Below, piece after piece: positions 926 through 26,119 of a stretch of 37,078 nucleotides of DNA. Every line of letters begins with the position of its first letter. The first letter of the stretch is position 1. A program made the translations under genes and the position numbers. Origin of the DNA: Opitutales bacterium (GTDB taxonomy: Bacteria; Verrucomicrobiota; Verrucomicrobiia; Opitutales; JAFGAQ01); contig JAFGAQ010000167.1 of NCBI GenBank assembly GCA_016933595.1, forward strand, positions 1 to 37,078, read 5' to 3'. A model generated the notes under the pieces. The model saw only the letters and a program-made list of their open reading frames with translations. It was not told the DNA's origin and did no database searches.

Positions 926-1134
926 AACAGATAACGTTTTGAGAACAACGATGTTTAAACGAATCATGGTAACCGATCACCGAGGCCCATGCAAGCCGAC
1001 ACAGGCTTTTCAATGAAGACGCCTAGGCATCGAAGAGACGTGGGAACACGCCATGGATGCGAAACGATTCAAACTACCCCGGAGAACCCCGTTCCCGGCT
1101 TGCACCGGTAGCGGCATCTCTCATATTGAATGCC

Positions 1135-2826
1135 ATGCCCGGAGAATTCCACTCGATCGAAGACACCATTTTTGTAATCGGACATAAGAACCCCGATACC
1201 GACTCCATCTGTTCTGCAATCGGATACGCTGCCTACAAACAGGCGACCGGAGAATCCGGCTACGTGGCTGCACGGTGCGGCAACTCCAACCCGCGCATCG
1301 ATGCTGTCCTGAAGCGCTTCGGAGTGCCACTTCCGGTTTTCATCGGTGATGTCACGCCAAGAGTCCGGGACATTATGAAGCGCAAGCCCCACTGCGCCAA
1401 GCTCTCTGACACCTGCTCCGAAGCACTTGAAGCCATGGATAAGTATGACTTTCGCGCGCTTCCGGTGGTGGACGAAGCCGATCATCTCAAGGGACTGATT
1501 TCGATCTTTCATCTGGGTCAGTATTTCACGCCGCAAGTGCGCAATCCCCTTGAGATGCGAAGGGTCCGGAGCAGAGTTTCCGATATCATCCGGGCGCTCA
1601 AAGCCATGGTGATCCATTCCATTGACACGGAAAGGGAAGAGGAGCTGTTTGTTCGAGTGGGGGCAATGGACATACGTTCTTTCGATCTGTTCCACGACGA
1701 AAAGACCATTCCTGCGAAATCGAGTATCGTCGTGGTCGGAGACCGCTGGGACATTCAGGAAAAGAGCATTCAGCTCGGAGTGAGGTTGCTGGTGATCACC
1801 GGAAACCTCAAAGTGGAAAAAGACATCATAGAACGTGCCATCGACAAGGGCATCAGTCTGGTGGTGAGTCCCTACGACACCGCAACGACATCCTGGATCA
1901 TCCGTTCGGCGACCAGCATACGGCACATCGCGGACCCAGTGGCGCACTCATTCCGCGAGTCGGACACGCTGAGCATGGTCAAACGAAGGATTCTGGAGCA
2001 AGTGGCTCCGCTTTACACCGTGATTGGAGAAGACGAAAGGCTCATCGGGGTATTCTCCAAATCCGACCTATTGCGCCCCGTCAAGACACGTATTGCCTTG
2101 GTTGACCACAATGAAATGAGTCAAGCCGTTGATGGAGCCCGTGAGGTTCAGATCGTAGAAATCATCGACCATCATCGCCTCGGAAACCCGGGAACGGAGC
2201 AACCCGTGCTGTTCATCAATCAACCGGTGGGGTCCACCTCGACAATCGTTGCCGATCTTTTCCGGCGCAGCGGATTGACGCCTGATCCGGCAACTGCCGG
2301 GCTATTGATGGCTGGATTGATTTCCGACACCCTTCACCTGAACAGCCCGACTACAACATCCACGGATCGGGATCACCTATCCTGGCTCTCGGAGATCGCG
2401 AAAACCGATCCATCCGAGCTTGCCCAGCTCATTTTCAATTCCGGAAGCGTGTTACTTGAAGACGATCCAGAGAAGATCATCCTCATGGACTGCAAGACCT
2501 ATGACCATGGAAACCTGAGATTCTCCGTTTCGCAGATCGAAGAACTCGGTTTTGACAATCTCTGGAAACGCTACGATATCCTGATGCGCACACTCGAGAG
2601 CTACAGGAGAAAGAATAACCTGACCTTCTCCGGGCTGCTGGTAACGGACATTAACCATCAGGATTCCCTCTTCCTTGTCACCGGCGACGCATCTCTTGTG
2701 GAATCGATTTCCTATCCCAGGGCCAAGGAACACGGAGTATTTGAGATGAAGGGCGTAGTAAGTCGTAAAAAACAATTGATCCCCTACCTCAGCAGTTGTA
2801 TGAAAAGCATTGGAATACTGCTTTGA
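1135..2826 (+). CDS. ppaC: Manganese-dependent (family II, DHH) inorganic pyrophosphatase with CBS/DRTGG regulatory insert
   Basis: FVIGHKNPDTDS, IIDHHRLGN, QPVGSTST and C-terminal SRKKQLIPYL motifs; about 240-aa CBS-like insert (RDIMKRKPHCAKLSDTCSEALEAMDKYDFRALPVVDE); the ORF is open from 1057 but ATG 1135 fits family N-termini. Confidence 0.9.
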   Translation: MPGEFHSIEDTIFVIGHKNPDTDSICSAIGYAAYKQATGESGYVAARCGNSNPRIDAVLKRFGVPLPVFIGDVTPRVRDIMKRKPHCAKLSDTCSEALEAMDKYDFRALPVVDEADHLKGLISIFHLGQYFTPQVRNPLEMRRVRSRVSDIIRALKAMVIHSIDTEREEELFVRVGAMDIRSFDLFHDEKTIPAKSSIVVVGDRWDIQEKSIQLGVRLLVITGNLKVEKDIIERAIDKGISLVVSPYDTATTSWIIRSATSIRHIADPVAHSFRESDTLSMVKRRILEQVAPLYTVIGEDERLIGVFSKSDLLRPVKTRIALVDHNEMSQAVDGAREVQIVEIIDHHRLGNPGTEQPVLFINQPVGSTSTIVADLFRRSGLTPDPATAGLLMAGLISDTLHLNSPTTTSTDRDHLSWLSEIAKTDPSELAQLIFNSGSVLLEDDPEKIILMDCKTYDHGNLRFSVSQIEELGFDNLWKRYDILMRTLESYRRKNNLTFSGLLVTDINHQDSLFLVTGDASLVESISYPRAKEHGVFEMKGVVSRKKQLIPYLSSCMKSIGILL

Positions 2827-2896
2827 TTGGACATTCAATCCTACGGGACGTTATTCCATCGCACCTCTCGATCAGGCACCCCAAAAAAGGATTCTT

Positions 2897-3364
2897 GTGA
2901 CCCAACAGACGGAAAGACAGATGATCATCGGTTACGGCATATCGGTTGAAGGCCGTATCGAAAACTGTGAACGACTGGTTCTGGACGGTAATCTCTCCGC
3001 CGAACTGGCAGATGTGCAAAGCCTCATCATCAACGAAACCGGCTCATTCCGGGGCAACGGGTCCGTCAAACATGCCGAAATCGGGGGACGCTTTGAAGGA
3101 GAGTTGATTGTTGAGGATCACATCACCATCCTATCGACTGGGCGAATCGATGGAAAAGTCACCTACTCCTCCATTGAGATAAAACCCGGTGGAAAGTTCA
3201 CTGGTGAGATTATCCTTAGGGATGCTGAACCGGAACCGGAAACCATGACGAGCAATCCGCACATGGATGGCAGTTTTGAAATCCCTTCCGGCAACGACGA
3301 CGATCAGGAAGACTATATTGACCGGGCACTCAAAAACCGGATCGCCCAAAGACCGGATCTCTGA
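2897..3364 (+). CDS. Bactofilin (polymer-forming cytoskeletal protein)
   Basis: Beta-helical repeat pattern IIGYGISVEGRIENCERLVLDGNLSAELADVQSLIINETGSFRGNGSVKHAEIGGRFEGELIVEDHITILSTGRIDGKVTYSSIEIKPGGKFTGEI; GTG 2897 is a plausible start (ORF open from 2810). Confidence 0.85.
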   Translation: MTQQTERQMIIGYGISVEGRIENCERLVLDGNLSAELADVQSLIINETGSFRGNGSVKHAEIGGRFEGELIVEDHITILSTGRIDGKVTYSSIEIKPGGKFTGEIILRDAEPEPETMTSNPHMDGSFEIPSGNDDDQEDYIDRALKNRIAQRPDL

Positions 3365-3460: not shown

Positions 3461-6457
3461 ATGCCAAAACAATTGATCTACACCAGCTACCCAACCGGGA
3501 TTCTCTCCGGACGCTCTGGTTTTCAGACAGTTGCCGCATCTCCAGGGGTGTCAGGAGCGCTTTCGACTCTCCTGGAAAAAGAAAGCTCCTATGATTTCGG
3601 GAAGGCGGCCAGTCACCGGCCGGTAATCCATCGTTTCTGGTCCTGTACGCTCGGAGACGGAATACACCACATTCTCACCCGCATTGGACCCTCGGGCAAC
3701 GATGCAACGGGACGGCCCAATCACATTGCCCACCACCTCATCTTCGATCCCGCCGAATTGCCAGCATGCCCGCCATCGGCGATATTCCTATATTGGAATG
3801 GCTGGGTCAGGCACTGGTCCGGGATCACAAACTGGGAGGAAACCCGGAACCCGTTACCGGCAAAGGCCATATCCGAACCCTTTGGATTTATCGCCAAAGC
3901 CGAACCAGCCTCCGGATGGAAGAAACTCCAAGGCGAACAGGCCAATCCCAAGACTCCATTCAATCTTTCCGGCCCTCTTGTATTCCCTTTTCCAGCCGGA
4001 CAGGAAAACACGTTGCTTCAGGTGTTTCTCGAAAGCCAGGCAACCCTCAATCCCGCGCTGTATTGGGCCTATCCATTCACCACCTGCCTCTCCGAAAGCG
4101 ACAATCCGACGATGTTCACCTGGATTGGATGGATACAAGATCCTATGATCCCGGCCATGCCGCTTCCTGAGGGTTGGGCACACCAGATTGTTGATTTATT
4201 CAACCCCGGCAGCCGTCCGGCGACCGAAGCCCCAAGCCCGGAACCCAAGCCTGCCATCGTCAGAACGACCACGGTCCGACTCACCCCCGTGGAGGATCCG
4301 CCACCCGATTCTTCCGTAAAAGAACCACATGCGGCCACTGATTCCGACCAAGATTCGACCCCTATCCTACAAGGGGATCTGGCAGATGGGTCCGCCCCTC
4401 CCCGACACCTCCATCCGGAGGGAATCCTGGACGACATCTTTGCCAAGGATGAATCGACTGAGCCGCCTATTATCATTCCTGAAGTCAACTTCGACGAATC
4501 CTCAGTTGATCTTCAGCAACGTAAGCCCAAGCCGTTTCTCGCCATTGCTCTCGTAATGGCGGGGATTTTGATGGCCGCTTTTCTGGTCATTTCCTTTCCC
4601 CGGGTTTTATCCTTCATCAACCAATCCCGTTCACCGGTATCCGTAAAACGTGTAGCCAGGCCGGTCGAAAACACTTCAGTTTCAACGGAAGCGGAACCCG
4701 CGTCAGGCACCACGGCCCCTGCCAATCCACTGGATGAAATAGGCGCGATTCTCGCCGGCAATGAGTTCCTACCCGCAAGAGCCTATCTCCTCCAAAATCA
4801 GAACAGCCCAACAAAAGCCCTCAATGAGGATGTGGCGATTCTTGCGGAGTGGGTCAAGACCCAACAAGGACTCCTAAGGGATCTGAACGTCACGCTGGCC
4901 AAGCTCGAAGGAGAAGTGATGGCCCGACAATTGATACCCGGCTTTGAGGAGCGCATCCGATCCGTTCGGGATGAAATGGACAAATTGGCTATTGACCTGA
5001 GGCAAAACACCTCCCTGCGTCTCGAAAAGGCCGAAACCTCCTATCGGGAGTGGCTTGCGGCCTCCAGGCTTCCGATCGCTGAAGCCCCCATTTACTTTCT
5101 TCAGTATTCCCCTACAGGAGAGCGCCCCACCCACACCTTCCAAAACACCCATCCCATCATGCTCAAATGGATGGAGAATCTGAAAGAAACGCTCACAACC
5201 TCGCAAATCGAGCGCATTCAGGTCGACATCATTCCTTTCAGGGGACTCGGAGATGTGGCGTTTCCGACCGACAACCGTTTACCGTTGAGTTTCTGGAAAA
5301 AGTCCGACCGCTCATTCGTATGCTCGATGGACAAGTCGATCGAAATCCTGCAATTCAAAGCATCTTCAGAAGATGGACGGACCATGGATTTTGAATGGCT
5401 GTTTGACTATAGGGGATCGGTCACATCCGGAAACCAGTTGATCCGGTTTCCGTCTCCCCCCCTGTTGGTCCGGTTCCGCAACACCAACACCGGTCAGGTG
5501 TTTTTTGTCATCTGCAACAGTGCGAACGTCGTTCCATTCAACAATCCCCCCGACATCCCGTTCTCACTGCTCAAGTATGATGCATCCACAGCGTCCTTTG
5601 CGCTCCTCGATCCTGTTCTTGCCCGCAAGCTGCGCCTGATCTCGCTCCCTGACGGGTTGTTCCTGCGCATGAGAAGTGGAGATGACCGGTTCCACTTCGC
5701 ATGGGATCCTGCGACCGCAACATTCCATCTGTTTGAGACCTGGGATTTCGAGATCCAAAGTGTTCAAGGCGTCCAGGAAGCCATCGCAAGAGAATTCGGA
5801 GAGCTACGGCACCTTCAGCGGATGCAGCTGGTTCTGAACACATGGAAGGAATTCAAGGCATCCGCCTTCTGGGACATGGGCAAACGCCTTTTGGAACCGA
5901 TGGAAATGCCACCCGAATTGGGGAATTTCGAAGCCTTCAGCAAAGACCGGCCGGTCACCTACCTCGATTACATCCGGGCCATTCTCTCCTACTACGCGAC
6001 CGAAAAAACAATGGTCCGTCCTCAGATTCTTGAACAGTGGATGGCATTCGATGATGCTCAAGGCCCGGACCGCGATGGCCGAATTATTGCTTACCGGGAT
6101 TTGCTAACCCGCTCCGCCAGGCGCTTCCGGACGTTGCTCAAGTCCGAGCAACCCGACAATGTCGAACACTGGAGGCAAATGGTCACCACGCTCGAATTCC
6201 ATCTGCTGGGCCATCAGGAAGCGTTGTTTCTGCAGATTGCCAGCCTAAGCCCTGGGGAAATTGTCCTCGCTGAGACCGGATCAATCAGCGACCCAACCGC
6301 CTCAATCGCTCGCATTGAGGAGCAAATCGCCGCCAGAAAGCTTGAGTTGGACGCGGCAAGTAATCTCGACGACATTCCAGGTATTTCCGAATGGCTTCTG
6401 GATGTCTGCTCACTGGCACCTGAACACACGGCGTTTCCGCTTCTTCGTTTCAAATGA
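3461..6457 (+). CDS. GAP1-N2-like GTPase-associated protein with one TM helix and a large C-terminal coiled-coil/unknown region
   Basis: N-terminus MPKQLIYTSYPTGILSGRSGFQTVAASPGVSGAL and GDGIHHILTRIGPSGNDATGRPNHIAHHLIFDPAELP resembles the GAP1-N2 family; TM near 4534-4600 (FLAIALVMAGILMAAFLVISF) after a Pro/acidic linker. Confidence 0.75.
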   Translation: MPKQLIYTSYPTGILSGRSGFQTVAASPGVSGALSTLLEKESSYDFGKAASHRPVIHRFWSCTLGDGIHHILTRIGPSGNDATGRPNHIAHHLIFDPAELPACPPSAIFLYWNGWVRHWSGITNWEETRNPLPAKAISEPFGFIAKAEPASGWKKLQGEQANPKTPFNLSGPLVFPFPAGQENTLLQVFLESQATLNPALYWAYPFTTCLSESDNPTMFTWIGWIQDPMIPAMPLPEGWAHQIVDLFNPGSRPATEAPSPEPKPAIVRTTTVRLTPVEDPPPDSSVKEPHAATDSDQDSTPILQGDLADGSAPPRHLHPEGILDDIFAKDESTEPPIIIPEVNFDESSVDLQQRKPKPFLAIALVMAGILMAAFLVISFPRVLSFINQSRSPVSVKRVARPVENTSVSTEAEPASGTTAPANPLDEIGAILAGNEFLPARAYLLQNQNSPTKALNEDVAILAEWVKTQQGLLRDLNVTLAKLEGEVMARQLIPGFEERIRSVRDEMDKLAIDLRQNTSLRLEKAETSYREWLAASRLPIAEAPIYFLQYSPTGERPTHTFQNTHPIMLKWMENLKETLTTSQIERIQVDIIPFRGLGDVAFPTDNRLPLSFWKKSDRSFVCSMDKSIEILQFKASSEDGRTMDFEWLFDYRGSVTSGNQLIRFPSPPLLVRFRNTNTGQVFFVICNSANVVPFNNPPDIPFSLLKYDASTASFALLDPVLARKLRLISLPDGLFLRMRSGDDRFHFAWDPATATFHLFETWDFEIQSVQGVQEAIAREFGELRHLQRMQLVLNTWKEFKASAFWDMGKRLLEPMEMPPELGNFEAFSKDRPVTYLDYIRAILSYYATEKTMVRPQILEQWMAFDDAQGPDRDGRIIAYRDLLTRSARRFRTLLKSEQPDNVEHWRQMVTTLEFHLLGHQEALFLQIASLSPGEIVLAETGSISDPTASIARIEEQIAARKLELDAASNLDDIPGISEWLLDVCSLAPEHTAFPLLRFK

Positions 6458-9400
6458 GTCCCAACCCCAAGGCTTTGATTCGGGATATCCTGACCATTCT
6501 CGAGGCGGGGGAACCCGGACTGGAAGGTGTGAGGATTGCTACGGAGTATAGGACACACTGTCAATCGATTCAGGAACGCATCGATCGTTTCATGGAGCTC
6601 TCCCAGGCGGGTCACATCTACGCGGCTCTGGATATCGCAAGAGCTCACCCCCCGCTGCTGGTGGCAATTGAGCAAACCCAGTTCCCGAAAGAGAAGGAAT
6701 GGGCCGAATTCACTTCCCGAAGGGGTCTTCCGACCTTTTACGGATTCAAGCATGAGCATGTCGAACGCATCCGTATGCTTTCAAGCGAAGGCTTCAATGT
6801 TCAGGCCCCTGGATACCGGGCATTCCGGAAGGCCATGCTTGTAAAGGATCGGGCAGCTGCGGCTCAAGCCCTCCAGTCGATCATTGCATCCAACCCCGCA
6901 GAACCAAATGCTCCTGTAGAACTCGCCCGAATTGAGAGACAGGATCTGAACATGATGATGGAGCAGCTCGGGGAAGCCCTCTCCGGTGACGATCCAGCAG
7001 CAATCGAATCCTTGGTGAATTGCATTCACCATCGCGAATGGAGCATCCCGGTTGCTTCGCCCGTTCTGGACCGCGCACTGCGGCGCCTCAATCACAGCCA
7101 AACGGCAAAAGCCCCCACCACAGGGAAATCAACGACCGCTGCCGTTTCGCACCCACCGGATTCGAAGCCATCTGAGCAAGCAGTCGCTCTGGAGGCTGCG
7201 CCGATTGCGCCCCCACCCCCGGTCGACATGCCGCCGGATCCGGGCTTGTCAAAACTCGTATCCCGTTTGACAGTTATTCGGCGGGTCGGATTCTGGAAAG
7301 ACGCCGAAGCCCTCATCGAAGAAGGGAAAACGCTCCTGAAAAGCCCACCGTCTTCTGCTTCCAACCAAACCCTGATCGACCAACTCAGGGATCATTTGAG
7401 CTGGTATGAAACCGAATACAAAAAGGAGCAGCAGGCTGAACAACGGAAACATCTGGTTTCGGCATTCTCCGCACGCATTGCTGAAGACAGCATTCGGACA
7501 GAGCTGGAGCCACTGAATGCGCGTGAGATCAAACGCTTCCGGAAAAGGTTGGTGCAAGAATGGAAGCAAATCCAGTCCTCCGCCCCGGAAGAATCCGCAT
7601 GGCTGAGTGTCACCTTCGGAACTGCACTCGAGACAATAAGCTCCAGTCTTGCCGAACGCAAAGCGAGGCAGGGAATCACTTTCTCCGTCCGGCCCCAGCT
7701 TATTGGATTCCGCCGCATGTGGGCCGTCCCCTTGGCCGCTTTCCTGATCCTCGCCTTCGGGATCGGGATCCACGAGCGGCAGGGAGATATCGCCAGGCGC
7801 GCTGACTTGTTCCGGGTCAACCTTCTGGAAAACGACACCAGAGGTATCCTTAAGGAATACGACTCATACGTTGGAAAACCGCTTCCACGCCTTTTCAAAA
7901 AGTTGAATTCATCCGCGGAGCGCTCTGTCAAACAAGCGCGTGACTGGTTATCCGAAATCGACAACCGGAACGGCAAAATTGAACAGATGATCACCGAGTG
8001 CGAAAGCCTGCTCGCTTCGTATTCGCCGGATTCTGATGAGACAATCCGATTGAACATCGAAACCGCGAAAGACTTCGCCAATCGCTCTTCGAATGACGCT
8101 GCACCCGGTTTGCTAAAGAACCTCAATGCCCTTTCGGTTCGACTCACGAAGGCACGTGAGGCATTTATTGACGACATGCGCAATTCTGTCGAGGAAGACT
8201 TCGAAAAGGCGCGGAGTCTGCTCTCATCGAGCCTGCATTGGGGCATTTTAGACCCCGACGAACTCAGGGAACCCCTCGCAGCCGTCAACGGGCATTTGGC
8301 GGGCCTTGAAACAATCATGATCGAAAAACGGGCGGCACAGTTTCTTCCCGATCTCGACAAAGACTACCGCGACCTAAGGGAATCGATCCGCGAGTTTGAG
8401 ACATCAGCCGCACGGTATCGTCTTCTCGAAGCTGAGCTTGAGATGGCATCCACTCTCGATCAATACCTTACAAAAATTGATGCTTTGGCCAACCTCCGCT
8501 TCGAACGCCTACCGCTTTGCGTGGCGGCCCGGACCATCAGCGCCGACCGTTCGAAGCTGCAAGACCCGCTTCGATACATGTTCATGCCGGAGGACGAGCA
8601 GGGATGGGACCACCTTCTCTCCCACAGGGACATTCCACTCATCCCTATTGTGGCAACGCCCCGGGAGAAAACTGCATTCCAAAGGATCAGCGGTTATGAA
8701 CCACTCTTCTCGATATACGCCTATGAAGTGCAAACCTTTGAAAACGGCCAGCCCGTTTCAGAACCACGCAACATATTCTGCTTGTATCAAGCGGACGTCG
8801 AAAGCATTGAACTCCCTTCCAGCAGACGTCTCCTTCAGACCGTTCAGGTGTATGATTCCGGTTCGGGATCCGACAAACCCTTTTCCAACGAGGTATTCAT
8901 ATGCACAACCGACGTGAATGGAGTTCCCATGGATGGCGACCACCTCCAACTTGATCGCCTGCTTCCGGAATGCGCATTCTTCTCCCAGCTGCGCACCCTT
9001 GCGATGTTTGATGAAAACAACGGGACCTTCGAAAAATCCCTGATGGAGGTCATGGATCTTGTCGCTGCCGACAGTTTTATTGACCCGATATTCAAAGCAT
9101 TCCTCATGCAGGAGCTTTATGCGTTCATGTCGGTCAGACCGTATGACTGGGGCCTGAACCTCAGTCCCTTCGTATCTGTCCATCAAAGAAGAATCCGGGC
9201 ATTGGCCGGTCGTATCAAACCATTTGACTGGCTGGACGATTCCAAACGCGAGAGAATTTCCCCTGCGTTGCGGGCATTGTTTGAAGAAAACTCGAGACTA
9301 TCCTATTTCAAACAGGCCCTTGCGATGCGTTCCCTCATGATAGAGTGTCTCGATCAACCGGTTCTGTATGCCGGCCATCTCGATCGTGAAGGGAAATGGG

Positions 9401-9672
9401 TTCCATCCTCATCGGATCCGATTCAGAACCGTCTATTCGGATTGGACTCCATTGGCGACATTCAAGGAATCCTATCGGTTCAGATCGAGAAACGGCAAAC
9501 CGAAATGCTTGCTCAAGGGAAACCGCTCTCCCCGCTTCTGCGGTTCAAGGACACCCCCGATACCCTTTTGAACAGGGTTATTGATGCCACGGGTCTTGAT
9601 CTTACCAAAGACCCACATCGGACCCTCCTTCCCTCCATATTCCTACCCTCCATCCGGGCTTCCCTGCCCTGA
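6454..9672 (+). CDS. Large single-TM, coiled-coil rich protein of unknown function
   Basis: 1072-aa ORF; ATG overlaps the upstream TGA (ATGA); TM AVPLAAFLILAFGIGI near 7717-7770; charged helical segments on both sides; Pro-rich linker PIAPPPPVDMPPDP. Confidence 0.8.
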   Translation: MSPNPKALIRDILTILEAGEPGLEGVRIATEYRTHCQSIQERIDRFMELSQAGHIYAALDIARAHPPLLVAIEQTQFPKEKEWAEFTSRRGLPTFYGFKHEHVERIRMLSSEGFNVQAPGYRAFRKAMLVKDRAAAAQALQSIIASNPAEPNAPVELARIERQDLNMMMEQLGEALSGDDPAAIESLVNCIHHREWSIPVASPVLDRALRRLNHSQTAKAPTTGKSTTAAVSHPPDSKPSEQAVALEAAPIAPPPPVDMPPDPGLSKLVSRLTVIRRVGFWKDAEALIEEGKTLLKSPPSSASNQTLIDQLRDHLSWYETEYKKEQQAEQRKHLVSAFSARIAEDSIRTELEPLNAREIKRFRKRLVQEWKQIQSSAPEESAWLSVTFGTALETISSSLAERKARQGITFSVRPQLIGFRRMWAVPLAAFLILAFGIGIHERQGDIARRADLFRVNLLENDTRGILKEYDSYVGKPLPRLFKKLNSSAERSVKQARDWLSEIDNRNGKIEQMITECESLLASYSPDSDETIRLNIETAKDFANRSSNDAAPGLLKNLNALSVRLTKAREAFIDDMRNSVEEDFEKARSLLSSSLHWGILDPDELREPLAAVNGHLAGLETIMIEKRAAQFLPDLDKDYRDLRESIREFETSAARYRLLEAELEMASTLDQYLTKIDALANLRFERLPLCVAARTISADRSKLQDPLRYMFMPEDEQGWDHLLSHRDIPLIPIVATPREKTAFQRISGYEPLFSIYAYEVQTFENGQPVSEPRNIFCLYQADVESIELPSSRRLLQTVQVYDSGSGSDKPFSNEVFICTTDVNGVPMDGDHLQLDRLLPECAFFSQLRTLAMFDENNGTFEKSLMEVMDLVAADSFIDPIFKAFLMQELYAFMSVRPYDWGLNLSPFVSVHQRRIRALAGRIKPFDWLDDSKRERISPALRALFEENSRLSYFKQALAMRSLMIECLDQPVLYAGHLDREGKWVPSSSDPIQNRLFGLDSIGDIQGILSVQIEKRQTEMLAQGKPLSPLLRFKDTPDTLLNRVIDATGLDLTKDPHRTLLPSIFLPSIRASLP

Positions 9673-9687
9673 TGTCAGACTTGGCAG

Positions 9688-11220
9688 ATGGCCCAGCCCG
9701 AAAACATGAGGAGCTCCAGTGGTTCCACGAAATGGACCGCCGCCGATCTGGTGGATTTCGAATGCGCGCTCTCCATCGACCGTCGGCAACCCTTTGAGTC
9801 CCTGATTGACAGGGACAAAGCATTTCTAATCTCCAAACCCCGCGACACAGCCAATCGATCCAGTCTCTTTCTCGAATGGATCCGATTCAGAAGAAAGGCG
9901 GATTCAGGGTATTCGTGGCCTGGGCAGACGCTATCCGAAACCTGGTCCATCCTCAAGTGGATCGTATGGATCGGATCGGCTATCTTCGGGGCCGCGGCCG
10001 CCACTTCTCTTCTCGTCTATAATGGGACACATCCGATAAATGTCGCATGGTTCCTCGCAATTCTGGTGATGCCTCAGGTATTGTTCTCCCTCATCTCCCT
10101 GACCTTCACAGTCGTTGTTCATCCTTTTGGCTGGGTTCCAAGGCCATCTGCGACGCTCGCCGGACGAATCATGCTTCGCCTTTGGAGCGTATTCCTCCTC
10201 CGGAAAAATGCCGCCCCGCATGAAGAGGATGCTTCTCCCGGAAAAGAGTTGGTTGCAAGAATGGCAACACACCGCAAATGGCTGGGCTGGAAGCTCTACA
10301 CATTTTCCCACATCTCCGGAGTGGCATTCAATCTGGGAATTCTCTGTGCCACGCTGTTTCTGATCACCTTCAGTGACAGGGCATTCGGATGGCAGTCCAC
10401 CATCCGGGTCGACGCAAGGCATGTACACATGTGGGTTGAACGCATTGCGTTTCCATGGGCCGCCATCTGGGAGGAAGGTCAAGGCTATCCGACCCTTTCC
10501 GGAATCGAGTCGAGCCGGGTCAATCTAAATGCCCCCCCCGACCAAAGGGATCCTCAGGCATTGGCATCCTGGTGGAGCTTTCTCGTCCTATCGATCGCGT
10601 TTTACGGGCTCATTCCCCGCGTAGTATTCGCGATCTATGGGTCCATACGCACCCGGGCCGGCATGGCTTCTCCATTCTTTGACTATTCGGATGCGGAGGA
10701 TCTATGGAATCGCCTCCATTCCGATCGGGTCGGATTCCGCCCAACTCACTCCGAAAAACAGGCATCTTCGTCAAACGCTCCCCTCCTGCAAAAGAAATGG
10801 TCTAAAGTATCCGCCAGCTCAATTCCAATTACCTCCGGTGGAATCCTCCTCGCACCGCCTGATGTCATTCGCCTGCTGGGGGAATCCCGACTGTCCGATG
10901 CAGCCGAAACCGCGCTTGGAACTACTTTCTCCAAGGTCATCCCCTTTAAGGTCGAGTCCGTTCCGATAGCTACGGATACATCCCACACTCTTATCGTCGA
11001 GGCATGGGAGCCTCCGATTGAAGAGTCGCTCCAATCCATCCGGCAGTTTGCCGAAGGGTTGGGTTCCATGCCCCTTCATATACTGTTTACCGGCATGGTG
11101 ATACCCGACGGCCCACTTACAAAACCCGCCGAAAATGACCTTGAAATCTGGACGAACAGCCTAAAGAAACACCGAATCAAAACAACCTCAATTCACACGC
11201 CTTTGGAGACGGCTTCATGA
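9688..11220 (+). CDS. DUF2868-like multi-TM membrane protein
   Basis: TSLLVYNGTHPINVAWFLAILVMPQVLFSLISL, GWQSTIRVDARHVHMWVERIAFPWAAIWEEGQGYPTLSGIESSR; always seen next to a DUF3482 GTPase in my recollection, as here. Confidence 0.75.
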   Translation: MAQPENMRSSSGSTKWTAADLVDFECALSIDRRQPFESLIDRDKAFLISKPRDTANRSSLFLEWIRFRRKADSGYSWPGQTLSETWSILKWIVWIGSAIFGAAAATSLLVYNGTHPINVAWFLAILVMPQVLFSLISLTFTVVVHPFGWVPRPSATLAGRIMLRLWSVFLLRKNAAPHEEDASPGKELVARMATHRKWLGWKLYTFSHISGVAFNLGILCATLFLITFSDRAFGWQSTIRVDARHVHMWVERIAFPWAAIWEEGQGYPTLSGIESSRVNLNAPPDQRDPQALASWWSFLVLSIAFYGLIPRVVFAIYGSIRTRAGMASPFFDYSDAEDLWNRLHSDRVGFRPTHSEKQASSSNAPLLQKKWSKVSASSIPITSGGILLAPPDVIRLLGESRLSDAAETALGTTFSKVIPFKVESVPIATDTSHTLIVEAWEPPIEESLQSIRQFAEGLGSMPLHILFTGMVIPDGPLTKPAENDLEIWTNSLKKHRIKTTSIHTPLETAS

Positions 11221-12647
11221 CGACTCCTATTTCAACCGGCATCCGCAACAGTCCACTCACGCTCGCTGTAGTGGGACACCCCAACGAAGGGAAGTCCTCG
11301 GTTCTCGCCACTCTCGCTGAAGACGACGGAATCCGGATCAGTTCCTTGCCTGGTGAAACACAGTCCGTTGAAATGATTCCGGTTTCCCTCGACGGAGTCG
11401 AGTTGTTCCGACTCGCCGACACTCCAGGCTTCCAAAATCCTGAAGCAATAGCGGAATGGATTCGCAAGAACACCACTCCCGAATTTTCCGGTAAGGCGCT
11501 CTTCGAATGGTTCACGGCTGAATTCGCCGGATTACCCCGATTTAATCATGATCGAGAACTCATACGCGGTCTGATTGGCGCCTCCGCCCTCCTTTACGTC
11601 ATCGACGGATCCCGGCCGGTCCGGAGTTTCGACCTCGCTGAGATGGACATCCTGAGGATGTCGGGCCTTCCAAGAGTAGCCCTCATCAACTCAAAGTCCG
11701 GGGTGCCCCGGTTTGCAGATGACTGGAAGAAAGTCCTCAACCTTCACTTCAGTTCAATCCGCTTATTCGACGCCCATAGGGCCAGGTTCAACGACCGGAT
11801 CGCACTGATCGAGACACTGCGTTCGATTCAGCAGGATTGGGAGCCACTCCTCGGGTCAGTCGCCGCCGCACTCAAGGACGACTGGGAACGCCGTATCCGT
11901 GCCTGCGCCACATGCGTAATGGATCATCTCGTCGACACAGTAGGTTTGAAGATCGTGAGGCAATATCCAATCCATGGGAACCCTGAGCCTGCCAGGCAAA
12001 AGGCACGCGGATCCTATTTCAATGCAGTGGAGCGCCGTGAGGCACGTTGCTTCGACCAGATGCGGCATCTATTTAAACACAGGATCACAGACTTTCCGAT
12101 GCCACCCCATCCGATTCTGGACGAAAGCCTCTTCTCTGCCAATACGTGGAAAATGCTGGGTTTATCGAGGCGCCAGCTCGCGTTGGGTGCCGCAGCTGCT
12201 GGAGCGGCTGGCGGAGCTGCATTGGACGTGGCATTCAGTGGAATCACCTTTGGAGTCTTTACTGCGGGATCCGCGCTCATTGCCGGATCAAGTGCCTACA
12301 TGCGCGGCGACAGGCTCGCCGAAGTAAAGGTCCTAAGGACTTCTCTTGGGCACGGGGAAGTCCAGGTTGGCCCGAACCGCAATCCCAATTTTCCTTTTGT
12401 CTTGTTGGATCGTTGCCTGCTCCTCTTCGATACCATCAGCCATTGGACCCACGCGAGGAGGGATCATCCGAATGTTTCCCATCCACAATCAGCCGGCTAT
12501 ACAAGCGAGTGGACAAAGGAAACCATCCAATCCATCCATCGGCTCACCAAAGCCATTCGGAAGGATCATCAGCAGGAGTTGGATAACGCAAGGCTATCTC
12601 TGGAGAGCTTTCTCTCGGACGAGCTTCAGCGCATCGCTTCCCGTTGA
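11217..12647 (+). CDS. DUF3482-like GTPase
   Basis: Walker A GHPNEGKSS, G3 DTPGF, C-terminal Gly/Ala-rich hydrophobic segment LALGAAAAGAAGGAALDVAFSGITFGVFTAGSALIAGSSA; ATGA overlap with the upstream gene. Confidence 0.8.
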   Translation: MTTPISTGIRNSPLTLAVVGHPNEGKSSVLATLAEDDGIRISSLPGETQSVEMIPVSLDGVELFRLADTPGFQNPEAIAEWIRKNTTPEFSGKALFEWFTAEFAGLPRFNHDRELIRGLIGASALLYVIDGSRPVRSFDLAEMDILRMSGLPRVALINSKSGVPRFADDWKKVLNLHFSSIRLFDAHRARFNDRIALIETLRSIQQDWEPLLGSVAAALKDDWERRIRACATCVMDHLVDTVGLKIVRQYPIHGNPEPARQKARGSYFNAVERREARCFDQMRHLFKHRITDFPMPPHPILDESLFSANTWKMLGLSRRQLALGAAAAGAAGGAALDVAFSGITFGVFTAGSALIAGSSAYMRGDRLAEVKVLRTSLGHGEVQVGPNRNPNFPFVLLDRCLLLFDTISHWTHARRDHPNVSHPQSAGYTSEWTKETIQSIHRLTKAIRKDHQQELDNARLSLESFLSDELQRIASR

Positions 12648-12892
12648 GCCACAATCCGTCCTCCGCGTCAGGGTGACCCAAGCCAGGGGCGCAAGAACCA
12701 ATCGTGCCATATTGGCGCTTTTATTTCTATCCGCCCTTTGATGTGTCATTATGGCGCTTTCGTTAAATGAACCCCGCTTTCGTAGGTATCTGATAATCTG
12801 CAACTTACCGCGCATGCCAACTTGGCGCAGCACCTGCATAAGAAGGGTTGTTGAACCAAAAACACTTTAACAACAGACAAGGAGGCATAATC

Positions 12893-13312
12893 ATGAGACT
12901 GATCAAATACGACAACCGAAGCGTTAATCCGTTCGCCGAACTCGATCGCCTTTTCAGCGAGGCCCTCTGGGGAGGCAACCGCTATGGATGGGAACGCATG
13001 TTTGAGTCGCCTACCGGTTCACTCAGGGTGAACCTGTATCACGACGACGACGCACTCTACGTAACCTCGGAACTTCCCGGCGTGTCCAAAAAGGATGTGT
13101 CGATCCAGCTCGAAAACGCTGTGCTCACGATCCGCGGAGAACGCAAGATGAAGGAAGATAAAACCGAATCGAGCGTCGCATTTGAGCGAGCCATTACCGT
13201 GGGCGAAGACATCAACGCTGACAAAATCAAGGCCACGCTCGAGGATGGAATCCTCACCGTTACGCTCCCGAAAGCAGAACACCGGAAGCCCAAGGCTATT
13301 ACGGTTTCGTAA
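12893..13312 (+). CDS. Hsp20/alpha-crystallin family small heat shock protein
   Basis: LYVTSELPGVSKKDVSIQLENAVLTIRGERK..., GILTVTLPKAE; AAGGAGG Shine-Dalgarno upstream of ATG 12893. Confidence 0.92.
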   Translation: MRLIKYDNRSVNPFAELDRLFSEALWGGNRYGWERMFESPTGSLRVNLYHDDDALYVTSELPGVSKKDVSIQLENAVLTIRGERKMKEDKTESSVAFERAITVGEDINADKIKATLEDGILTVTLPKAEHRKPKAITVS

Positions 13313-13960: not shown

Positions 13961-16405
13961 TCAGAAATCAACCCCAAATGTCAGACTGTAACGGGGTTCG
14001 GTTGGAACCTTGTAGCGCTCTGTAGCAATCACGCTAGCGTTTCCGGTGTCGACCCATCCTACGAAGTCATCCTGCGAGGTGATGTTCTTCGCGTTGAGCT
14101 GAACCATGGCATCGAGGCCCATCAGGTCGAAACGATAGGTTGCAAAGCCTTCAAGGTAGAAGGTGCTTGGGTTGTAACGGGCAACTCCATCGTAGTAGCC
14201 AATGAGCTTTTCATCCGCCCACTTACCGCCAAGACCCAGGGACAGCCCTTCAGCTGCACCTTCAGTGAAGGTGTATTTGGTGAGGAATGCGATCTGGTTT
14301 TCGATCAGCCCTTCCACGCTCAGGCCTTCGAGAGAAGAATCGATCGCTTCAGTGGTTTCCTGGTCGGTGTGAGCCAAGCTCAAAACCATCTGCCAATTCG
14401 CATTGGGAGAATAGACCAGGTCAGCTTCAATACCTTTGGCTTCCTGCGTGCCACCCGGAACATAGTCACCGGCGAGGTCCATGCGGCTCTGCCCCGGGAA
14501 CTCGAGTTCGCGCTGCTCAGGAGTCATGCTGTCCCACATCCGTGTATCCAGATTCTCCGCATTCGGATCGGTCTGAGTTCCACCGGATTGCTCGATGATG
14601 TAATAACTCAAGGTTCCGCTCAATTTGCCATCCATCATCTCGATCTTGGCACCAACTTCATAGCTCTTACCTTCAATCGGAGGCATTTGTTCCATGAAGT
14701 CGTTCTTGTCCGTGTTCGGGAAGAGCGAAGTTGAATACAGGGCGAACAGCGAGATCTCTTCGGTGATGTCAAACATACCACCGATCATTGGAGACCACTG
14801 ATCTTCCTTGGTTTCGTTCACCTTTTCCCAATAGGAATTCGGATCCTCGCCGGTCTTGTTCAGCAGCTTGAGGTTCAAATCAGTGCGGTTAACACCAACG
14901 TTGGTCCTCAGACGATTATCTAGAGCAGACATCTGCCAAGTCACAAAGTAGTACGTATTTGCACTGTTTTCGCGTTCGTTGCCCGGACGATCCCAGAAGT
15001 AGTCGGCGGGAGGCCCTGTGGGTAGACGAAGATCGATACCAGCCTGAACCGGGAAATAGATCAGATTCGGAGAATCACCCGGCTGGGTGGCCTTCTTCGA
15101 ATTGAACTTTTCGTTCCAAGTGTGGGCACCGGCGGTGAAGGTGTTATTGATTCCACCCATGTCGAGGCGATAAACGGCCGTCGCGCCCAAGGCGTTGTTG
15201 GCATTTTCCCAGTGACGGTAATGGTACTGCAGTGCAATGCGTTCCTGCGGAGTGTTCGGATTCAGCCAGCCCGTGACGTTTCCACCACGCGATGCCGACC
15301 ATCCCAAGTCCCAACCAGCGGCTGCTCCGGTGTTACCGTTTGCATCCCAACCATCGCTGTCCACATTCGTGCGCCGCAGATATTGGTAGTATGCGGTCAC
15401 ACTGAAGTTGTCGCCCACGCTCTGGGTGATGTCAGCGCGATAGTAATCCACTTCGCTGCTGCGCATGTTGTCCACGGCCCAGTTCCATTCCCATGGAATC
15501 TCGGGATGATGAATCTGAAGGGGAACTTCCGCTCCGGCGCCCGTTCCGCCAATTGTGAAGAATCCGAGGCCATTCGGCTTTTCGCGGTATCCCTGTTCAG
15601 CCGTGAATTGGATCTTGGTTCCTTCAACCGGAATCCATCCCACATTCACCAACTGGTAATCAACCTTCCCCTTGGAATGATCGCGGTAGTCACGGCTCTC
15701 AGTCTTGGCTCCGTTGAAACGAACACCGACCTTACCGATCTTGCTGTCATTCACTGCGTTGGCGTCGATCGTAGCACGCCATTCGCCTTCACTTGCGCCC
15801 ATCAGACGGACTTCGGTGAAGCTATTAAAGAAGTCGACTTGCTTGGTCACGCTGTTGATAACGCCACCGGGATAAGTCACACCATACAGGGCGGCGGCCG
15901 GCCCCTTTACAACTTCCACGCGGGCAAGACCCTGGGAGTCGATCGGGTCATAGGTGCGAACACCGTCACGCAGACCCCAGTTCTGGCGGAATCCGCGAAA
16001 AATGAACTGCTGGTGGGCCTGCTGAATGTCGTTCGATGAATGGACGTCGGCGCCTCCGTTGATCAACGCCGAATTGTAGCGCGTCATTTCGAGCTGGCTG
16101 CCCATCACCAAGTCATCGGAAAGATCCTTGGTGAACACCTGAATGTTCATCGGGATCTCGCGAATCGGTGTGTTGGTACGAGTACCTGCGATAGAGTTGG
16201 ATGCAGTATAGCCGGTGTCCTGTTCAGCCGTAATCGTGAACGGGTCCATTACGTACACTTCATCGGTCGTCTCCGACTGTGCGAAGGCCGCTGTTGCGAG
16301 CAACGGCAGTCCGAGAGCGAGCCTCGGGATCAGATGCCAACGGCTGGAAGGCCTTTGGCTCATGGGGGTTGTCGTCATATCTGATTTCTGTTGGTTTGGG
16401 TTCAT
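13961..16405 (-). CDS. TonB-dependent receptor (outer membrane, siderophore/FhuA-like class)
   Basis: Signal peptide LALGLPLLATAAFAQ, plug region VYVMDPFTITAEQDTGYTASNSIAGTRTNTPIREIPMNIQVFTKDL, VEVVKGPAAALYGVTYPGGVINSVTKQ, terminal YSLTFGVDF. Confidence 0.9.
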   Translation of the reverse strand: MNPNQQKSDMTTTPMSQRPSSRWHLIPRLALGLPLLATAAFAQSETTDEVYVMDPFTITAEQDTGYTASNSIAGTRTNTPIREIPMNIQVFTKDLSDDLVMGSQLEMTRYNSALINGGADVHSSNDIQQAHQQFIFRGFRQNWGLRDGVRTYDPIDSQGLARVEVVKGPAAALYGVTYPGGVINSVTKQVDFFNSFTEVRLMGASEGEWRATIDANAVNDSKIGKVGVRFNGAKTESRDYRDHSKGKVDYQLVNVGWIPVEGTKIQFTAEQGYREKPNGLGFFTIGGTGAGAEVPLQIHHPEIPWEWNWAVDNMRSSEVDYYRADITQSVGDNFSVTAYYQYLRRTNVDSDGWDANGNTGAAAGWDLGWSASRGGNVTGWLNPNTPQERIALQYHYRHWENANNALGATAVYRLDMGGINNTFTAGAHTWNEKFNSKKATQPGDSPNLIYFPVQAGIDLRLPTGPPADYFWDRPGNERENSANTYYFVTWQMSALDNRLRTNVGVNRTDLNLKLLNKTGEDPNSYWEKVNETKEDQWSPMIGGMFDITEEISLFALYSTSLFPNTDKNDFMEQMPPIEGKSYEVGAKIEMMDGKLSGTLSYYIIEQSGGTQTDPNAENLDTRMWDSMTPEQRELEFPGQSRMDLAGDYVPGGTQEAKGIEADLVYSPNANWQMVLSLAHTDQETTEAIDSSLEGLSVEGLIENQIAFLTKYTFTEGAAEGLSLGLGGKWADEKLIGYYDGVARYNPSTFYLEGFATYRFDLMGLDAMVQLNAKNITSQDDFVGWVDTGNASVIATERYKVPTEPRYSLTFGVDF

Positions 16406-16749
16406 ATTTCAGTTGTTCCAGGGGGCATCGGCATATTCGAATACACGAACATTCCAATACCTTTAGGAAATAGTCCAAAAATTGGGATGATTGAGGTCAA
16501 CCTGAAGCCACCGTTTCGGGGATCGGGAAGATTCAATGTCAGATCATGGATTATGCCAGGGGTTGAATGGTAGGATAGTGCAAGATTGGGAAAAATATCA
16601 TAAATCTCCCCTCAAAGCGCCATTCCATTGTCACTCATCCATAAGAGTCGCCACTGGAAAAGCGTTAGGAATCTTAACAACGGAATGCATCCGACACCAA
16701 ATGCAGCAATTTGCACCAGATACTTCTGGCCTGAAGGGATATTCACCCG

Positions 16750-17421
16750 CTATTTCCTGAAACGCTTCACCAGCGACAACGAATCCGCACACATTTGCGT
16801 GAGTGAGGACCAATCCTTCTGTGAAAGTATTTGTTTGGTAATGAGCTGCGAACCCATGCCAACGCAGCAAACACCCGCGCTGAACCAAGCGCCAAGGTTC
16901 GCTTCAGTGGGTTCCACGCCTCCGGTCGGCATGATCATCGTCCATGGCATGGGACCCTTGACCGCCTCTACAAATTTCGGCCCACCCACTTGGGCACCCG
17001 GGAAAATTTTGATGAGATCCACGCCATACTCCTGAGCACGCACTATTTCGGATACCGAACCGCAGCCAGGTGAATACGGAATCATCCGTCGATTGCAGGT
17101 CTTCGCAGTTTCCTCCACAAAACCCGGAGATACCACAAAATCGGCCCCAAGCTGAATGTAGAGATCAGCCGTAGCCGGATTGATAACCGATCCAACGCCC
17201 AAAGCCATCCCATCGAGCTCCCGCTGGACAGCACGACTGACTTCTGAAAAGGTTTCGTGGGCGAAATCGCCCCGATTCGTAAACTCAAAAGCCCTTATCC
17301 CACCTGCGTAGCACGCACGGATCACATCCAAACACAGAGATGCATCCGAATGAAAAAACACCGGAATTACTCCGGTTTCGAATATAGTGGATAGGACTTG
17401 GTGTTTTTTGTAACGCGACAT
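16750..17421 (-). CDS. eda: Bifunctional KDPG/KHG aldolase family protein
   Basis: GVIPVFFHSD, GGIRAFEFTNRGDFA, LGVGSVINPATADLYIQLGADFVVSPGF, IKIFPGAQVGGPKFVEAVKGPMPWTMIMPTGGV. Confidence 0.85.
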   Translation of the reverse strand: MSRYKKHQVLSTIFETGVIPVFFHSDASLCLDVIRACYAGGIRAFEFTNRGDFAHETFSEVSRAVQRELDGMALGVGSVINPATADLYIQLGADFVVSPGFVEETAKTCNRRMIPYSPGCGSVSEIVRAQEYGVDLIKIFPGAQVGGPKFVEAVKGPMPWTMIMPTGGVEPTEANLGAWFSAGVCCVGMGSQLITKQILSQKDWSSLTQMCADSLSLVKRFRK

Positions 17422-17463
17422 ATTATTTGTTCTTTGGGGATGATTCAGTCCGAGCGGATTCTG

Positions 17464-18882
17464 TCAACTTCCTCCCCGCTCGGGAAACCCGAAATAGCTC
17501 CGTGCATTTTCGTGGCATATGCCCCTTACCAACTGACCCAACCCATCGATGTCATTCGGGATGAGACCGTTTTCAACATCATCTCCGATCAACTGACAAA
17601 GCAAGCGCCTGAAGTATTCATGCCTGCAATAGGACAAAAAGCTTCGGCTATCGGTCAGCATACCCACAAAACGACTGAGCAAACCAAGGTTTGAGAGCGC
17701 GTTCATCTGCATCGTCATGCCTTCGATTTGATCGAGAAACCACCATCCACTTCCAAACTGGATCTTCCCGGGAACCGTTCCATCCTGGTAATTCCCCGCC
17801 ATCGTTGCGAACAGATAGTTATCGGCAGGATTCAGGTTGTATAGGACTGTCTTCGGAAGCCAACCCTTGGCTGCCAAACGGTCCAAATACCCAGCCAGTG
17901 ACAGCCCTTGATTCCAATCTCCAATCGAATCAAAGCCGGTGTCCGGACCAATCGATCGGACCATGCGCGAGTTCGTGTTGCGCATCGCTCCCAAATGCAA
18001 CTGCTTCGCCCAGCCTTTTTCAGCGTCCATTCTCCCGAACTGAAGCATCATGTAACCTGCAAAACCCACACTCTCGTCTGCGTTCGGAACACGCCCTGAC
18101 CGGAGCTCCTGATACAACCGGGCGGCTTCTCCATCGTCCATGTAACGGTCTGGGCACACTTCAAGCCCATGGTCGGAAAGCCTTGCGCCCATCCCATGGA
18201 ACACATCGTGTCTCGCCTGCAAGGCGCGGATGAACCCATCCAGTGATGAGCATCCAATCCCGCTTGCCGACTCGAGACGGGACACCCAAGGGTTCCATTC
18301 CTCCGGATTACCGGTCTTCATCGCCTTATCCGGACGATAGGTTGGATACACTCCCGTAGATAATGGACTGTCTTTCAATTTGGAATGCCAGACAAGATCA
18401 TCCACCGGATCATCGGTTGTGCCGACGACCTCCACCTTGAATTTCCTCAGCAATCCCCGAGCCGAGAAATCAGGGGCAGCCATCCGCTCCGCCGTAATCT
18501 CCCAAATGCGTTCGGCATTGGACTCATTGATGATGAGATCACAGTCGAATACACGCTTCAACTCCAGATGGCACCAATGATACATCGGATTCCGGACCGC
18601 ATAGGGCACGGTCCGGGCGAACGCCATGAACTTCTCTTTTGGAGACGCATCCCCGGTGCAAAATCGCTCCGGGATACCGTTCGTACGCATCAACCTCCAT
18701 TTGTAGTGATCCCCCTCCAACCAGATTTCATAGAGATTATTGAATCTCCGGTCCTCGCAAACCTCCTTCGGAGAGAGATGGCAATGGTAATCGATGATCG
18801 GCAAATTCTCCGCGTAGTCATGATACAAGGTGCGGGCGATGGGGTTCCGCAAAAGGAAATCGTCATGGATAAATGGTTTCAT
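17464..18882 (-). CDS. uxaC: Glucuronate isomerase
   Basis: MKPFIHDDFLLRNPIARTLYHDYAENLPIIDYHCHLSPKEV, RTVPYAVRNPMYHWCHLELKRVF, GMLTDSRSFLSYCRHEYFRRLLC are classic UxaC motifs. Confidence 0.95.
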   Translation of the reverse strand: MKPFIHDDFLLRNPIARTLYHDYAENLPIIDYHCHLSPKEVCEDRRFNNLYEIWLEGDHYKWRLMRTNGIPERFCTGDASPKEKFMAFARTVPYAVRNPMYHWCHLELKRVFDCDLIINESNAERIWEITAERMAAPDFSARGLLRKFKVEVVGTTDDPVDDLVWHSKLKDSPLSTGVYPTYRPDKAMKTGNPEEWNPWVSRLESASGIGCSSLDGFIRALQARHDVFHGMGARLSDHGLEVCPDRYMDDGEAARLYQELRSGRVPNADESVGFAGYMMLQFGRMDAEKGWAKQLHLGAMRNTNSRMVRSIGPDTGFDSIGDWNQGLSLAGYLDRLAAKGWLPKTVLYNLNPADNYLFATMAGNYQDGTVPGKIQFGSGWWFLDQIEGMTMQMNALSNLGLLSRFVGMLTDSRSFLSYCRHEYFRRLLCQLIGDDVENGLIPNDIDGLGQLVRGICHENARSYFGFPERGGS

Positions 18883-18910
18883 GGCTTTGCATGTCTGGTA
18901 TTTCCAACCA

Positions 18911-19711
18911 TCAAATGGTCATTGAAGCGTATCCCCCATCCACCACCAACTCGTGTCCTGTGATGAACGAACCGGCTTCGCTCGCGAGCAACAAAGCAGC
19001 ACCGACCAACTCCCGCGACTCCCCGAATCGGCGCATCGGAGTGTGACCCATGATGGATTCAATCCGATCCGGCGTCAAAACCTTGCGGTTCTGCTCAGCC
19101 GGGAAGAAGCCTGGAACCAGAATATTCACCCGCACGCCGCTTGCAGCCCATTCGCGGGCCAGGTTTTTGCTTAGGTTATGCACCGCTCCCTTGGACGCCG
19201 AATAGGTGAAAACTCTTGAGAGAGGGGTCAGTCCACTCGCACTGCCGATATTGATGATGCTTCCACTTCCCTTCGACACCATATGGGATCCAAAAACCTG
19301 ACACGAAAGGAACACCGACTTAAAGTTAACCAGCATGATACGGTCGAACTCATCTTCACCGATTTCCAGGAATGGAGTGGCGGAATTGATGCCGGCTCCA
19401 TTGACCAGAATATCGATCTGACCGAGTTCATCGACCACCTTGCGACACACCTCATTCAGCGAAGCGCGTGTCGAAACATCAGCGGGAATAAACCGTCCCA
19501 TACCCCCTTCTGTCTTAATCCGGTCCAATTTCACCTGAGCTTTGACAGGATCACGGCCCACCAAGACCACCTCGGCACCCGCTTGGGCCAACCCAACGGC
19601 AATCGCTCCACAGAGTTCGCCAGTCCCGCCAATCACAACAGCCACCTTTCCCCTGAGGGAAAAGAGAGAATTCAGGTAATCATTCATCATTTCCAATTCT
19701 GAACCAATCAA
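18911..19711 (-). CDS. SDR family oxidoreductase, likely D-mannonate/fructuronate oxidoreductase type
   Basis: [27 protein letters not shown] Rossmann motif, [20 protein letters not shown] catalytic motif, [17 protein letters not shown]; position next to uxaC supports the substrate. Confidence 0.8.
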
Positions 19712-19737
19712 AACACTATGGGATTCTCCGATCTGCC

Positions 19738-20835
19738 CTACCGTACCACGCGCGCTCCGCCTCCAGCCATCACCTTTTCGACTTCCTTAACGGTCGCCAT
19801 CGAAGTATCACCTGGGGTGGTCATCGCCAATGCTCCATGAGCCGCACCGCAATCGACTGCCCACTGCGGGTCACCCTTGGTCAAAAAACCGTATATCAGA
19901 CCACTCGCAAAACTGTCTCCACCGCCCACACGATCGAGAATTTCAAGCCCCGGATAGGACCTACTCTGGTAGAACTTTCCACCCATCCACACCATCGCGC
20001 CCCAATCGTTAACAGTAGCGGTCTTAACCGTCCGAAGTGTGGTGGCCGTTGCTTTGAAGTTCGGAAACTCCGAAACCGCCTTTCCTATCATGCGTTGGAA
20101 ACTTTCAACCTCAATATGGGAAATGCTTTCATCCACGCCCTCCACTTCGAAGCCAAGGCTCGCGGTATAGTCTTCCTCATTCCCGATCATCACATCGACA
20201 TGCCGGGCAATTGCACGATTGACCTCCTGTGCTTTTTTGAGTCCACCAATGCTCTTCCAGAGGCTCGGACGGTAGTTAAGGTCGTAGCTCACGATCACTC
20301 CATGCCGATGGGCCGCCTCGACCGCTTCAATGGTCAATGCAGCCGCGGTTTCACTCAATGCGGCAAAAATACCACCCGTATGGAACCAGCGCACCCCTTC
20401 CTTTCCAAAAAGGTGATCCCAGTTCACATCGCCCGGTTTCATCTGGCTCGCGGCAGTATTCGCACGGTCCGGAACCCCAACCGCGCCACGGATTCCAAAA
20501 CCCCGCTCCGTAAAATTCAGTCCATTGCGCACCGACCGACCAATACCGTCGTATGGCACCCACTTCACATAGTCTGTGCACACTCCACCCTGCATCATGA
20601 AGTCTTCGATCAAACGCCCAACTTCGTTGTCTGCAAAGGCGGTAACTGCCGCACCGCGCAAACCAAAGCACTTCCTCAATCCACGGGCCACGTTGTATTC
20701 TCCTCCGCCTTCCCATGCTTTAAATGAACGTGCGGTACGCACACGCCCTTCTCCTGGGTCCAAGCGCAGCATGATTTCTCCAAGCGATACGATATCGAAG
20801 CGGCAAGCTTCTGCAGGTTTTATCTTAAGACTCAT
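19738..20835 (-). CDS. kdgK: PfkB-family sugar kinase, likely 2-keto-3-deoxygluconate kinase
   Basis: [27 protein letters not shown]-terminal [19 protein letters not shown] anion-hole motif; neighbours eda and uxaC. Confidence 0.85.
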
Positions 20836-20900
20836 GATTAATCCTCCAATATGATGTTATTGATACCCGAACTGATGTGTCCTCCAAACCAGCTTCCCGC

Positions 20901-22061: not shown

Positions 22062-22179
22062 TCGATGAAGGTGAGATTCCTGCCGGGCTGTCTTTCATTC
22101 TGGATTTGATTCGAAATGGGATCCTGAAGGTTAATCCTGCGGACATCTCAATGCATCCCAGGATGAACTTCCGACGAAA

Positions 22180-23157: not shown

Positions 23158-23185
23158 AATGTTGTTCGAAAAAATACAGAACCCG

Positions 23186-24481: not shown

Positions 24482-24488
24482 AATCCCA

Positions 24489-26080: not shown

Positions 26081-26119
26081 AAGGGTATCTGGGGTTGATC
26101 AGTTACTGCATTCGCAGAT

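Follow-up and report, generated by a model that had tools for sequence, protein, structure and literature searches.

The closest described relatives of the locus analysed here are the GAP1-N2 systems of Kaur et al. (2020; PMC7159879), in which GAP1 is presented as the co-evolving partner of DO-GTPases, and from which GYF/trypsin and GYF/transmembrane (TM) variants are known in planctomycetes. The locus comprises four consecutive genes (genes 1-4) lying within positions 3461-12647 on the plus strand of contig JAFGAQ010000167.1 of Opitutales bacterium GCA_016933595.1, and the whole stretch of 37,078 nt is called the window. An earlier reading of the letters alone, here the sequence-only reading, had taken the four genes for one GTPase-membrane system. 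The more probable account is that they are two independent modules placed head to tail, module A (genes 1-2) and module B (genes 3-4), which adjoin only in one Opitutales genus, and that module A is completed by a DO-GTPase in trans.

Gene 1 matched GAP1-N2 (PF20013) with 66 bits at a cut-off of 24, while gene 3 matched DUF2868 (PF11067) with 142 bits and gene 4 matched DUF3482 (PF11981) with 198 bits, both well above cut-off, gene 4 also matching MMR_HSR1 with 43.8 bits. The sequence-only reading had recognised the GAP1-N2-like start of gene 1 and the DUF2868/DUF3482 membrane protein-GTPase pair, and the strand, the two overlaps and the gap are exactly as it described them (Table 1). Hydropathy, from which TM segments were predicted, gave one TM in each of genes 1 and 2 and bore out its two large single-TM proteins, and its tie of GAP1-N2 to GTPase-centred conflict systems agrees with Kaur et al. 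(PMC7159879). GAP1-N2 was the sole Pfam match in gene 1, in which the middle and C-terminal GAP1 domains are perhaps too divergent for Pfam, and the C-terminal part of about 600 amino acids (aa) is predicted to be periplasmic. Gene 2 had zero Pfam matches above cut-off and its family is unnamed; the Pfam scan gave no match to other GTPase/membrane-pair families. Genes 1 and 2 both end in a PLLRFK-like motif, and a profile comparison lent no support to their homology. Comparison with solved structures gave for gene 4 only the G domains of known GTPases (Der, MnmE and EngB among them) and for genes 1-2 only helical or low-significance noise.

Genes 1 and 2 and their probable DO-GTPase

Genes 1 and 2 are a widespread and strongly conserved pair in the Verrucomicrobiota, normally standing beside a DO-GTPase. 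A search with gene 2 found relatives of about 1,000 aa throughout the phylum, which was sampled by a draw of approximately 390 genomes in which rare four-gene operons elsewhere could be missed; 79 of 390 matched the gene-2 profile, 68 of them strongly. Genes in the relatives were called by a simple longest open reading frame (ORF) procedure. Sixty-three gene-2 neighbourhoods were examined, 54 of which had at least 3.5 kb upstream, and in 47 of these 54 a same-strand GAP1-N2 gene lay upstream at a distance of at most three genes, with both DO-GTPase and GAP1-N2 upstream in 42. The GAP1/gene-2 junction was usually tight and was an exact 4-bp overlap in 14 of the 46 measured, including the window and three relatives of the same family (G002-G004). 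Gene 2 is defined here as a constant, unnamed partner of GAP1-N2 throughout the phylum and is a candidate third core component of its GAP1-N2 systems. Phyla beyond the Verrucomicrobiota were reached only by a scan of genome contigs with two short gene-1 patterns, which matched only three metagenome-assembled genomes of Opitutales/Puniceicoccaceae. The DO-GTPases were identified by their PF19993 scores (cut-off 27), which were just under it at L035 (26.5 bits) and over it at L100 (29.1) and L101 (31.4), and by the motifs GAPSSGKS and YDNAGEHF.

The family of the window is represented by five genomes, namely the window's own (G000) and G001 in genus g1, G002 and G004 in the sister genus g2, and G003 (completeness 97%) in genus g3. 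Each holds exactly one DO-GTPase and exactly one GAP1-N2 at separate loci, and gene 1 therefore most likely works with the DO-GTPase encoded elsewhere in the genome, as judged from gene content. PF19993 alone missed DO-GTPases of the family, which were found with a profile. In G000 the gene (G000:C403:8975-10174; profile E 1.7e-138; PF19993 29.1 bits) adjoins glycosyltransferase and ketoacyl synthase genes, and its G-domain motifs GAPGSGKS and YDNAGEHF are intact (L100:8810-10249). A DO-GTPase adjoining GAP1 was not found at the window locus, and the dispersal is alike in all family genomes. A swap in which the DUF3482 GTPase replaced a lost DO-GTPase was considered, and is weakened by the presence of the DO-GTPase at its other locus in all five.

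Downstream of DO-GTPase, GAP1-N2 and gene 2, 23 of the 63 neighbourhoods encode a MotA/TolQ/ExbB-family protein (for example L035:5152-7858 and L045:2443-5098) with PF01618 scores of up to 41 bits and a weak ZorA similarity in PADLOC. The two small proteins encoded after it carry FSFQDIIT and SLELLLDTMCNTFGG as N-terminal motifs at the TM segment, with an acidic residue at or beside it, and are reminiscent of ExbD/TolR/MotB partners. Together the three genes look like an ion-driven stator attached to the GTPase system. Within the family genomes a profile search for c4, a companion gene of module A in relatives, gave no credible match, and the single MotA/ExbB-type profile match, in G001 only, may be an ordinary ExbB. 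The many MotA/ExbB-bearing operons suggest the hypothesis that GAP1-N2 systems of Verrucomicrobiota may be GTPase-controlled, ion-driven envelope machines; in the literature found, the activity of GAP1-N2 systems has so far been proposed from comparative genomics only. The phylum-wide DO-GTPase/GAP1-N2/gene-2 core with its MotA/ExbB-like neighbours is more interesting than the meeting of two modules of known kinds in a single genus.

Other neighbours of gene 2 were also observed. In family f54 (L043:12580-15314, L044, L047, L051 and others) gene 2 is followed by an actin-fold protein resembling PilM, FtsA and MreB (PF11104, 28 bits), and a shorter GAP1-N2 protein of approximately 300-340 aa lies upstream. 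Weak GYF-domain matches occur beside gene 2 at L050:12148-13788, L040:376-1119, L035:7875-8522 and L045:5111-5929, in proteins fused to trypsin, DUF805, DUF4190 or TM2 regions that resemble the planctomycete variants reported by Kaur et al.

The DUF2868/DUF3482 pair and its junction with genes 1 and 2

Of the 390 phylum genomes 31 contained DUF3482, as did 15 of 370 in the order, with DUF2868 as its recurrent neighbour. Outside the window's genus 31 DUF3482 neighbourhoods were read (L033, L034, L104-L123, L176-L184), and in at least 21 of them DUF2868 and GTPase-DUF3482 were adjacent by the simple ORF calling. No GAP1-N2, gene-2 or DO-GTPase gene was present in any of the 31, and no recurring immediate partner other than DUF2868 among the first 22. 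Conversely, DUF2868/DUF3482 stood beside gene 2 only in the window and G001 among the gene-2 neighbourhoods examined. Across the phylum the genomes with gene 2 and those with DUF3482 shared five members, 5.4 being expected (Fisher odds ratio 0.90, p = 1.0). No account of what the pair does was found in the literature, where one paper lists both domains as being of unknown function. As a separate observation, three loci of family f33 (L121, L122 and L123) carry a divergent DUF3482 subfamily scoring 45-70 bits, and the divergent DUF3482 genomes G227 and G239 have an intact DO-GTPase/GAP1-N2/gene-2 operon elsewhere.

Within the family all four genes occur together only in G000 and G001. The four-gene region of G001 is spread over three contigs. 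The first (C277; L124) carries the same upstream genes as the window, followed by codons 1-710 of gene 1; the second (C76; L063) takes in the latter half of gene 2 and continues through the spacer, gene 3 and the ATGA overlap into the beginning of gene 4; the third (C531; L032) holds the remainder of gene 4. Over the parts available, protein identity between window and congener was 97, 94, 90 and 93% for genes 1 to 4, and the ratios of nonsynonymous to synonymous substitution (0.09, 0.10, 0.21 and 0.14) indicate that all four are maintained under purifying selection. Both g2 genomes carry the two pairs at separate loci, while G003 has genes 1-2 and DUF3482 is absent from it. Among the sampled family genomes module A is present in all five and module B in four, and in G002, G003 and G004 genes 1-2 retain their overlap without an adjoining GTPase gene.

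The sequence-only reading had staked its single system on a four-gene order kept outside close relatives. Since the order was found only in the window and G001, is broken up in g2 and is absent from all 31 neighbourhoods outside the genus, the claim fails by that standard and is not supported. What it expected to be left in such a case, the DUF2868/DUF3482 pair, does remain, but not as the sole remainder, genes 1-2 being a conserved pair as well. In place of the claimed four-gene machine stands a testable two-module picture with its missing GTPase located.

Mechanism and competing explanations

Module A would supply the membrane components of a GTPase system of GAP1-N2 type. The products of genes 1 and 2 would both be bitopic inner-membrane proteins, each exposing its N-terminus to the cytoplasm and a large part to the periplasm, and the cytoplasmic GAP1-N2 domain would dock the DO-GTPase encoded on another contig. 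The GTP state or turnover of the latter could then be relayed to the periplasmic parts by way of the two TM helices, making an envelope sensor or switch complex, which agrees with the membrane-proximal role put forward for GAP1-N2 systems by Kaur et al. (PMC7159879). Module B would stand alone, as a GTPase that inserts a Gly-rich segment into the membrane together with a partner of four TM segments.

Several points weigh against two independent modules with a DO-GTPase in trans. The window's genome is 77.65% complete and absences in it are weak. In G000 and G001 the DO-GTPase has a shortened N-terminus (479 versus 622-632 aa) and degenerate zinc-ribbon cysteines, so that its role could have changed. 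The AlphaFold models are poor, with predicted local distance difference test values of 51 for gene 1 and 57 for gene 2 (3-4 sequences each), and the mechanism consequently rests on topology and genomic context.

That the adjacency is fortuitous, a rearrangement with no common function and perhaps not even joint regulation, is unlikely. It would fit the confinement to one genus with two sampled species and the separation of the modules in the sister genus, but read-through from gene 2 to gene 3 is very likely across a same-strand spacer of 15 bp, and this spacer has been retained despite a synonymous divergence of 0.18-0.28. By their arrangement modules A and B are probably co-transcribed in genus g1.

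Rather improbable is also a recruitment, in which the DUF3482 GTPase with DUF2868 would be a second or replacement GTPase of the GAP1-N2/gene-2 complex in this genus, giving one four-protein machine. The tight packing kept in two species (spacer and ATGA overlap), the purifying selection on all four genes and a cognate DO-GTPase that is outside the operon in the whole family and truncated in the window's genus all speak for it. The DO-GTPase nevertheless persists with intact motifs, G003 retains genes 1-2 and lacks DUF3482, which in G002 and G004 is not linked to them, the modules co-occur across the phylum no more than chance predicts, and elsewhere the DUF2868/DUF3482 pair has no dedicated third partner. 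A wider conjecture, held with low confidence, is that the genus may have a GAP1-N2/gene-2 complex served by two GTPases, the second being DUF3482 with DUF2868, and that gene 2 may be an unrecognised third core subunit of DO-GTPase/GAP1-N2 systems in the phylum, the MotA/TolQ/ExbB-like channel and two small proteins added in many of them suggesting a GTPase-gated, ion-driven envelope complex.

Phage defence or conflict as the role of the entire locus, proposed for GAP1-N2 systems on comparative grounds (PMC7159879), is very improbable, since PADLOC called no system and gave only a weak LeoA match within the G domain (27 bits), the flanking genes are for bactofilin, HSP20, a pyrophosphatase-like protein and sugar-acid catabolism, both modules are common in the family and no variable effector was recognised at the locus, to which the search was confined. 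Nor was any known defence gene, proximity to which the sequence-only reading had suggested checking, recognised nearby.

Surroundings and comparison with known systems

The features of the window are collected in Table 1. The sugar-acid catabolism cluster downstream, which also lies beside gene 4 in G001, encodes a TonB-dependent receptor-like protein, KDPG aldolase, UxaC, a short-chain dehydrogenase, a PfkB kinase, Ldh_2, a TRAP transporter (DctM, DctP) and a LacI regulator.

Table 1. Positions and properties of the four genes, their junctions and the surrounding features in the window.
Feature	Position	Strand	Remarks
Gene 1	3461..6457	+	998 aa; GAP1-N2 at aa 3-120, then an acidic/Pro-rich linker and a single TM (aa 359-377); C-terminal part of ~600 aa
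Gene 2	6454..9672	+	1072 aa; N-terminal half helical; a single TM (~aa 416-438), then a long helical region; C-terminus mixed alpha/beta
Gene 3	9688..11220	+	510 aa; DUF2868, four predicted TM segments
Gene 4	11217..12647	+	476 aa; P-loop GTPase domain (GHPNEGKSS, DTPGF) fused to DUF3482; hydrophobic stretch rich in Gly at aa ~321-360
ATGA stop/start overlap, gene 1/gene 2	6454..6457	+	Identical 4-bp overlap in G002, G003, G004, the other family genomes with a readable junction
15-bp spacer, gene 2/gene 3	9673..9687	+	Equal length and one substitution in congener G001; sole junction of the two modules
ATGA overlap, gene 3/gene 4	11217..11220	+	Kept in G001
DHH/CBS/DRTGG pyrophosphatase-like gene overlapping bactofilin ORF	1057..3364		Upstream of gene 1; same order in congener (L124)
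HSP20	12848..13312		Downstream of gene 4
Sugar-acid catabolism cluster	13961..27094	-	Content in text
ORF	27392..28918		508 aa; no Pfam match at E 1e-5

Genes 3-4 resemble the DUF2868/DUF3482 pair of other genomes in their usual order with a short overlap, and differ in that GAP1-N2 and gene 2 precede the pair only in the window's genus. YcjX and YcjF, a P-loop GTPase and a multi-pass membrane partner, belong to the Psp envelope-stress regulon. Genes 3-4 are alike in this general plan of a GTPase with a multi-pass membrane partner, a comparison by which no membership is claimed.

Compared with the GAP1-N2 systems described by Kaur et al. (PMC7159879), the window's family differs in that its DO-GTPase does not adjoin GAP1 and that genes 1-4 are without an FNIII component by Pfam. 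Gene 2 and the MotA/ExbB-like module of the relatives are not mentioned in the text consulted, nor do DUF2868 and DUF3482 appear in that paper. The likeness lies in the GAP1-N2 domain of gene 1, in the fusion of GAP1 to a TM segment, in a DO-GTPase within the same genome of a verrucomicrobial host, and in related operons that encode GYF-domain proteins as in planctomycetes.

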